32,494 bases of DNA from NCBI GenBank assembly GCA_029061025.1, contig JAIDSW010000261.1:1-32494 (forward strand), read 5' to 3'. Position numbers and translations under genes: made by a program. The notes beneath the pieces were generated by a model. It did no database searches. It had not been told where the DNA came from and saw nothing but the letters and a program-made list of their open reading frames with translations. The DNA comes from Duncaniella sp. Its GTDB lineage: Bacteria > Bacteroidota > Bacteroidia > Bacteroidales > Muribaculaceae. Positions 24,560 to 26,179 of the stretch are shown piece after piece; position 1 is the first letter of the stretch, and every line of letters starts with the position of its first letter.

Positions 24560-25417
24560 ATGAAAAAATACTCTCTATTTTTTGCCGTCGTGACCATGCT
24601 CGTCGCGCTCGCATCATGTGACTCCTCCGACCGTTTCGATGTCGGCCTTTACTCGGTAGCCGTTCCCACCGGATTCGCACCCGAGGAGATCGACACCTCG
24701 GTAGAATCAATCAATAGCGTACAGCTCACTACGCTCGATGATAAGAACACTGTGGTGATCCTCGCTTTCCCGTTTGAAGGCAACGATGAAATCGTGCTTT
24801 ATAATCAGACTGTCGGCGGTGCCAATCCCGCACTTGTGCATATGACTTACCCCTCGGGCGGTGTCAACAAATTTAATTTCGGCGACCGCTCGGGCAGCGA
24901 GATAGAGCTGTCGGGCATAATCGAAGGACTGAATGTCACCGGCAAGGCATATTGTTTCGTAACCGGTGGCTGCACATTTTTCGTCTACAGCCTCGCCACT
25001 GATGGCACCGACTACGACACTGACCGCAAAATCATCGAAAGCATCAAGGTCAACGAAAAGGCTATGGAGGAATTTGACTCCGAAAAGCGCGTAGACACAG
25101 TGGCTGATCTCGCCCGATTGAACCTCCCCGTGAGCGTTGACGAAATAACCACATGGACTGATGTAAAGGTGAATCATGCTGACAAAGAGCTTGTGCTTGT
25201 GATGACCCTTGGCGGCACTGCCGAGGATTATGGCAACGTAAGCGATACCTTTGCCGGCATGCACGACGGCATGGCTGCAAATCTTAAAGCCAACCGCGAG
25301 ACCGACTGGCTCATCGTCGTGCCCTCCGACGAAGGCTACACACTCGGCTACGATTACATCACCTCCGACGGCACCCTGCTCGGTACCCTCCGCTTCACCC
25401 CCGAGGAACTTAAATAA
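24560..25417 (+). CDS. Hypothetical lipoprotein
   Basis: 285 aa; lipobox in MKKYSLFFAVVTMLVALASCDSSDRF. Confidence 0.8.
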   Translation: MKKYSLFFAVVTMLVALASCDSSDRFDVGLYSVAVPTGFAPEEIDTSVESINSVQLTTLDDKNTVVILAFPFEGNDEIVLYNQTVGGANPALVHMTYPSGGVNKFNFGDRSGSEIELSGIIEGLNVTGKAYCFVTGGCTFFVYSLATDGTDYDTDRKIIESIKVNEKAMEEFDSEKRVDTVADLARLNLPVSVDEITTWTDVKVNHADKELVLVMTLGGTAEDYGNVSDTFAGMHDGMAANLKANRETDWLIVVPSDEGYTLGYDYITSDGTLLGTLRFTPEELK

Positions 25418-25554
25418 GGTTTTAGGGTTTAGGTTTTAGGTTTTAGGGGGGCGCACCCTAAGACAAAATTGTTTACTTTCTTCTCAAGCCCTAAAACCTA
25501 CCACCTAATCCCTCACCCCTAACCCCTAAAACCTAAAACCTAATCCCTAAAACC
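25418..25554. repeat. Telomere-like (TTTTAGG)n long inverted repeat
   Basis: Left arm GGTTTTAGGGTTTAGGTTTTAGGTTTTAGGGG (25418-25449) is 31/32 complementary to CCCCTAAAACCTAAAACCTAATCCCTAAAACC (25523-25554). A second degenerate CCTAAAA-rich block lies at 25489-25522. Confidence 0.9.
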
Positions 25555-25568
25555 TGAAAAAAAATTAT

Positions 25569-25576
25569 TACCTTTG
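25569..25576 (+). promoter_or_regulatory. -7 box TACCTTTG
   Basis: Matches TAnnTTTG, 30 nt upstream of the ATG at 25607. Confidence 0.6.
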
Positions 25577-25606: not shown

Positions 25607-26179
25607 ATGACATATTCGCAAGACGATTTCGATGCAGCTCTCTCGGCGCTCAGGCGCGGGGGCGTGATACTCTACCCTACCGACACGGTGTGGGGTATAG
25701 GGTGTGACGCCACCGATGAAGAGGCCGTCGAGCGGATATTCCGTATCAAGCGGCGTGCCGATAGCAAGGCCATGCTTTCGCTCATCGACTGCGCTGAAGC
25801 TCTTGAAGGCTACGTTGACCCCGAGGCCGCGTCTGCATCCATAAAGGTCATTGATCCCGCGCGGCCTACCACAGTGATTTACCCGAAGGTAAGAAACATA
25901 GCTGCGCCACTGGTGGCCGATGACGGCTCGGCCGGATTCCGCATAAGCCGTGAGGAATTCTCGCGCGAGCTGTGCCGGCAGCTCGGTCGTCCGGTAGTGT
26001 CAACCTCAGCCAACATCAGCGGCCGCCCTGCTCCGGCATCTTTCTCGGAGATTGATGACGAGATCAAGGCTGCGATGGACTATGTGGTGATACACGGCAG
26101 AGAAAGTGACGGCTTGGCAACCCCGTCGCGCATCGTAAAACTGAATCCCGACGGCACGGTAGCCGTGATACGCCCATGA
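25607..26179 (+). CDS. L-threonylcarbamoyladenylate synthase (TsaC/Sua5/YciO family)
   Basis: 190 aa; GGVILYPTDTVWGIGCDATDEEAVERIFRIKRR; PVVSTSANISGRPAP. Confidence 0.94.
   Translation: MTYSQDDFDAALSALRRGGVILYPTDTVWGIGCDATDEEAVERIFRIKRRADSKAMLSLIDCAEALEGYVDPEAASASIKVIDPARPTTVIYPKVRNIAAPLVADDGSAGFRISREEFSRELCRQLGRPVVSTSANISGRPAPASFSEIDDEIKAAMDYVVIHGRESDGLATPSRIVKLNPDGTVAVIRP

Follow-up and report, generated by a model that had tools for sequence, protein, structure and literature searches.

A long, almost perfectly matched inverted repeat in the gap between two bacterial genes suggests a functional hairpin, but the same appearance could arise from the way in which repeats grow. This question is raised by the window, a stretch of 32,494 nucleotides from Duncaniella sp. 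(assembly GCA_029061025.1, contig JAIDSW010000261.1), in which such a repeat separates a putative lipoprotein gene from tsaC/sua5. A sequence-only reading had likened its units to plant-type telomere repeats and had considered a slipped or expanded repeat acting as terminator or cruciform, a G-quadruplex and a dispersed MITE-like element.

Architecture and conservation of the tsaC/sua5 junction

Positions 25418-25555 form an inverted repeat of NNTTAGG heptads, with two arms of 33 nt (25417-25449 and 25523-25555) that are 97% complementary and 73 nt apart. The 32-nt arms with 31/32 complementary positions described in the sequence-only reading are real and are contained in these longer arms, and their heptamer-like units proved to be NNTTAGG heptads. 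The junction comprises the following features:

24560-25417, + strand: putative lipoprotein gene, 285 aa
25418-25451, + strand: G-rich arm, heptads GGTTTTA/GGGTTTA with a G run at the end, directly 3' of the TAA stop codon (25415-25417)
25454-25469, + strand: spacer motif, a one-mismatch copy of the dispersed intergenic motif CACCC(A/G)AAGACAAAAT
25490-25555, - strand: C-rich block, heptads CCTAAAA/CCTAATC/CCCTAAC, some units degenerate; NNTTAGG when read on the - strand
25557-25576, + strand: A-tract and TAnnTTTG promoter motif of tsaC, the outer boundary of the element
25607-26179, + strand: tsaC/sua5 (PF01300, 2e-41)

The borders and the neighbouring gene had also been read correctly. The G-rich arm directly follows the stop codon of the upstream ORF, and the C-rich block stops one base short of an 8-A tract (25557-25564), after which comes the promoter motif TACCTTTG (25569-25576). 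The degenerate CCTAAAA block noted in the loop is present and belongs to the C-rich block, which exceeds the arm length; pairing with the G-rich arm involves the outer 33 nt of the block. The upstream 285-aa protein is probably a lipoprotein, judging from its N-terminus with a LASC lipobox, and a Pfam search with it gave no match.

The predicted RNA fold of the element reaches -53.9 kcal/mol (z = -7.3, no shuffle equally good), and that of the other strand -62.9 kcal/mol (z = -5.8). Because of this fold, and because heptad words occur far above reversed controls, the element is not a chance structure. An Rfam search returned sub-threshold matches only, mostly to eukaryotic miRNA hairpins.

The inverted repeat is not the conserved feature. 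Among 18 paired elements from the genome carrying the window element (G000) and a sister species (G021), the match between an element's own G-arm and C-arm was 0.507, versus 0.505 against the arms of other elements, and permutation tests gave p values of 0.22, 0.90 and 0.47. Co-evolution of the two arms was rejected, since own arms match no better than others. In G223, nearly all arrays are single and unpaired. The tsaC junction itself varies in presence and absence, with three states in three species: paired arms in G000, a C-array only in G021 and no array in G009. These are comparisons between species, and the G009 junction is too diverged to serve as an exact empty site on which a target-site duplication could be recognised. 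The TAnnTTTG promoter motif and the bases after it are kept in all three. Thus, the earlier proposal of a terminator or cruciform formed by matched arms is not supported, because the arm match is that expected by chance, the hairpin is not followed by a T-tract and the sister junction lacks the G-arm. Of the compared set, the window element has the best-matched arm pair, and its hairpin is best explained as a by-product of a gap that holds two arrays of opposite orientation, which happen to match unusually well.

Several other repeats and a gene copy were also seen. In the sister species G021 (Duncaniella sp. SC0367; L042, L071), a diverged second copy of the putative lipoprotein (37% identity) lies between the first copy and tsaC. 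The spacer motif CACCC(A/G)AAGACAAAAT is found in 43 copies in G000 at <=2 mismatches (control 0), sometimes in tandem with a period of 21 or 26 nt; copies lie in the window (25454-25469) and at G000:C288:14785-14878 and C251:14332-14466. As an obligate core of the element it was ruled out, because G020 has 30 copies and no heptads. Intergenic regions of G020 (L246-L250) consist of other G/C-rich repeats, e.g., GTCAGCCTTTTTGG and GCGCGGTGCTTTAGCGCCG. Palindromic elements, such as GGGCGCTCC..GGAGCGCCC and GCGGGGGTCGGCGACCCCCGC, occur in or beside the spacers of heptad elements (L011, L013, L020, L078, L081).

Distribution, turnover and polarity of NNTTAGG arrays

The repeat at the tsaC junction belongs to a large family, with many copies in this genome and in relatives. 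The draft assembly of G000 (2.49 Mb) consists of 363 contigs, many of them broken at arrays; it contains GGTTTTAGG 97 times versus 15 times for the reversed word, at about 25 places, and TTAGGNNTTAGGNNTTAGG 60 times versus 0 for the control. Its arrays combine the heptads TTTTAGG, GATTAGG, GGTTAGG, CTTTAGG and GTTTAGG in one orientation or both. Matches to three tandem heptads were found in 3 of 27 Duncaniella species (G000, 60; G021, 195; G018, 2) and, across Muribaculaceae, in 92 of 397 genomes and 17 of 30 genera, with a maximum of 363 in one genome; the reversed-pattern control was almost empty in the genus and family counts. Four tandem heptads occur in 38 of 393 genomes of the order. A literature search on Muribaculaceae repeats found nothing relevant.

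The variable dinucleotide of the heptad depends on the lineage: AG in G041, G034 and G481, AA in G049, GG/AG in G147, TT/GA/GG/CT in Duncaniella and CT/TT/CA/CG in G223. The resemblance to plant-type telomere repeats is convergent, as lineages have different dinucleotides and AGTTAGG or AATTAGG is the unit of many arrays. An actual telomere repeat was rejected, as the sites are internal and intergenic rather than at chromosome ends and the units are mixed rather than uniform. Since the arrays adjoin many unrelated genes, the membership of tsaC/sua5 in the Pfam family 'Telomere recombination' is a coincidence.

The array places are kept between sister species, while the order of their units is lost completely. 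G000 and G021 have 12 array places in common, with flanks that are 75-92% (mostly 81-92%) identical; similarity between orthologous arrays at these places is 0.557, versus 0.608 between non-orthologous ones. At a second locus, the first 147 residues of the neighbour gene are 100% identical in the two species, and the arrays differ in number and order, with 5 and 6 heptads in G000 versus 4 and 13 in G021; in 12 other congeners, this locus has an ordinary leader without arrays. The dinucleotide spectrum is common to the arrays of a genome, with an overlap of 0.523 within genomes versus 0.225 between genomes (0/300 shuffles), and G000 and G021 have the same spectrum of units. Moreover, identical heptads within arrays are enriched at a distance of 14 nt (0/500 shuffles) and 28 nt (1/500), and not at 7 or 21 nt, a periodicity characteristic of two-heptad units duplicated in tandem. 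The periodicity and the complete unit turnover support the slipped, expanded repeat suggested earlier.

The conserved feature is the polarity, in that the G-rich strand runs away from the ORF closest to it. In seven genomes, 79 arrays were sampled non-exhaustively from listed places, the loci of G000 and G021 not being mutually independent; of the 62 decidable arrays, 50 have their nearest ORF 5' of the G-rich strand and 12 have it on the opposite side (p = 1e-6). Where opposite arrays are adjacent, the G-arm precedes the C-arm in 21 cases and follows it in none. The polarity was replicated in another genus (19:4) and with GGATTNN, an unrelated heptamer from a different Bacteroidales family (16:5). 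The GGATTNN family, with 252 matches in its genome (G691; L272-L291), was revealed by the reversed-pattern control.

The arrays are intergenic, with 0/79 in the seven genomes and 0/23 in G223 lying within ORFs, as defined by simple longest-frame calls. They often start within a few bases of a stop codon, and 33 of the 55 ORF ends abutted by arrays are 3' ends. TAnnTTTG is found at <=60 nt from 14 of 54 array edges, versus a 2% background, and some arrays end at the ATG itself. Thus, arrays occupy the space left free by coding sequence and core promoter. At L009, L010, L077, L079 and L086, the adjoining ORF appears to take its stop codon from the array, since a heptad array contains TAG on the G strand and TAA on the C strand repeatedly in each of the three frames. 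Viral contigs, pooled irrespective of host, contain at least 120 stretches with NNTTAGG arrays (L112-L231; 0/176 blocks inside ORFs, polarity 112:45), and the arrays are therefore not confined to chromosomes. A blastn search for plasmid carriage with the low-complexity filter on gave no match.

Origin of the arrays and rival explanations

These observations are probably explained by a lineage-specific family of intergenic NNTTAGG arrays that grew by slippage and are confined by gene and promoter boundaries. Array length would change in steps of 14 nt (two heptads), through replication slippage or unequal exchange. Local slippage accounts for changes in length but is insufficient, by itself, for the presence of one set of units at dozens of loci. 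Either occasional ectopic conversion or template switching may have carried units from locus to locus, or the units may descend from one founding expansion. Purifying selection would halt array growth at coding sequences and core promoters, and the polarity could result from selection that acts against leaders with G-rich RNA and tolerates C/A-rich leaders as well as 3' tails rich in G.

There is a small chance that an active process in Muribaculaceae adds or copies TTAGG-core heptads in two-heptad steps and with fixed polarity at gene borders, keeping the unit uniform across the genome and erasing the order between sister species. If so, the same polarity with unrelated heptamers (other Bacteroidales, Xanthomonas, Nostoc) would point to a general, quadruplex-independent rule that links transcription or translation to repeat growth.

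It is likewise improbable that the elements are bidirectional insulators or terminators. RNA polymerase leaving either gene would first transcribe a G-rich stretch and then the C-rich one that pairs with it, and the long hairpin, possibly together with an R-loop on the G-rich stretch, would stop transcription and protect mRNA ends. The strong fold predicted for both strands, the G-first order from either side in 21/21 pairs and the tsaC junction, where one weak 9-bp stem is the only other terminator candidate between stop codon and promoter, are in line with such a role. However, own arms are matched no better than foreign ones, many arrays are unpaired (the majority in G223) and the G-arm is missing at the sister tsaC junction. 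In addition, the long stem is followed on the + strand by an A-tract and not by the T-tract of an intrinsic terminator. C-arms can also abut start codons, which counts against a terminator because termination there would hurt. A Rho site in the C-rich, G-free arms was rejected by reasoning, the polarity being opposite to that needed directly after a stop codon.

A binding-site array for a DNA- or RNA-binding regulator beside promoters and start codons is very unlikely. The constant TTAGG core with its variable dinucleotide and the arrays near promoters and start codons would suit a regulator, as MacGregor suggested for the TAACTGA repeats that precede start codons (PMC4679880), but most abutted ORF ends are 3' ends, orthologous arrays differ widely in length and arrays are missing altogether from most congeners.

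Just as unlikely is a regulatory role of G-quadruplexes like that put forward for GGGNATC repeats. Both arms of the window element contain two-tetrad motifs, as do nearly all arrays; the polarity and the location rule are also shared with G4-forming heptamers (PMC4692102). The three-tetrad motif, however, is absent from the window element and from all 33 arrays of G000, and only 5 of 79 arrays carry it overall. The polarity rule is therefore independent of three-tetrad quadruplexes, and since the AATTAGG and AGTTAGG lineages have GG runs only, quadruplex formation is not the conserved feature. Polarity in units unable to form three-tetrad quadruplexes and in an unrelated heptamer argues against the quadruplex explanation.

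Finally, a MITE or REP-like element moved by a transposase such as Y1 (TnpA_REP) is very improbable: the family is dispersed, as the sequence-only reading had supposed, and Y1_Tnp gene counts are the highest of the genus in G000 and G021 (6 and 7), but the arrays have no common ends, terminal inverted repeats or unique core, heptad number and type vary at their ends, and single arrays are common. Nor are Y1 transposases required: heptad-rich genomes (G034, G041, G091, G236, G328, G378) are without a Y1_Tnp match, Y1 occurs in 48 of 62 heptad genomes versus 213 of 335 others (hand tally), and the flanks examined around six Y1 genes contain no tandem array and a single isolated heptad word.

The slippage-grown arrays favoured here are of wider interest. 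Genome-wide identity of the units combined with local turnover constitutes a problem of concerted evolution. The arrays probably break short-read assemblies, and many lie at contig ends. Moreover, a single well-matched array pair can mimic a functional hairpin.

Relation to known repeat systems

Earlier descriptions of intergenic heptamer arrays in bacteria are few and offer no mechanism. To these, the present analysis adds a large family from gut Bacteroidota; roughly one in four of the sampled Muribaculaceae genomes has it, and related species do or do not carry arrays. The STRR heptamers of cyanobacteria are seven-base tandem repeats dispersed in the genome, like the arrays here, with different units and in a different phylum.

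The BrickBuilt MITE of Porphyromonas gingivalis (PMC4596501) is also a dispersed intergenic Bacteroidales element with an internal tandem repeat, but it has a 23-nt unit, a fixed leader and tail and inverted ends, none of which are seen here. The TAACTGA direct repeats of Beggiatoaceae, Cyanobacteria and some Bacteroidetes (MacGregor 2015, PMC4679880) are intergenic heptamers near start codons, with a patchy distribution and missing from close relatives in the same gene context, as are the arrays here. Their unit is unrelated and fixed, in contrast to the lineage-specific dinucleotide of NNTTAGG, and inverted pairs are nearly absent among them.

Heptanucleotides of Calothrix are cited by Rehm et al. 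(2015, PMC4692102), who reported the same polarity rule, along with inverted pairs, conserved gene context and variable length, for the Xanthomonas and Nostoc repeats GGGAATC and GGGGA(C/T)T. Like these, the Muribaculaceae arrays are tandem repeats of a G-rich 7-nt unit, dispersed over many intergenic loci as single arrays or inverted pairs, with polarity and with places that are kept while length varies. They differ in the NNTTAGG unit, the phylum and the 14-nt higher-order periodicity, and they have mostly GG instead of GGG runs and almost no three-tetrad motif.
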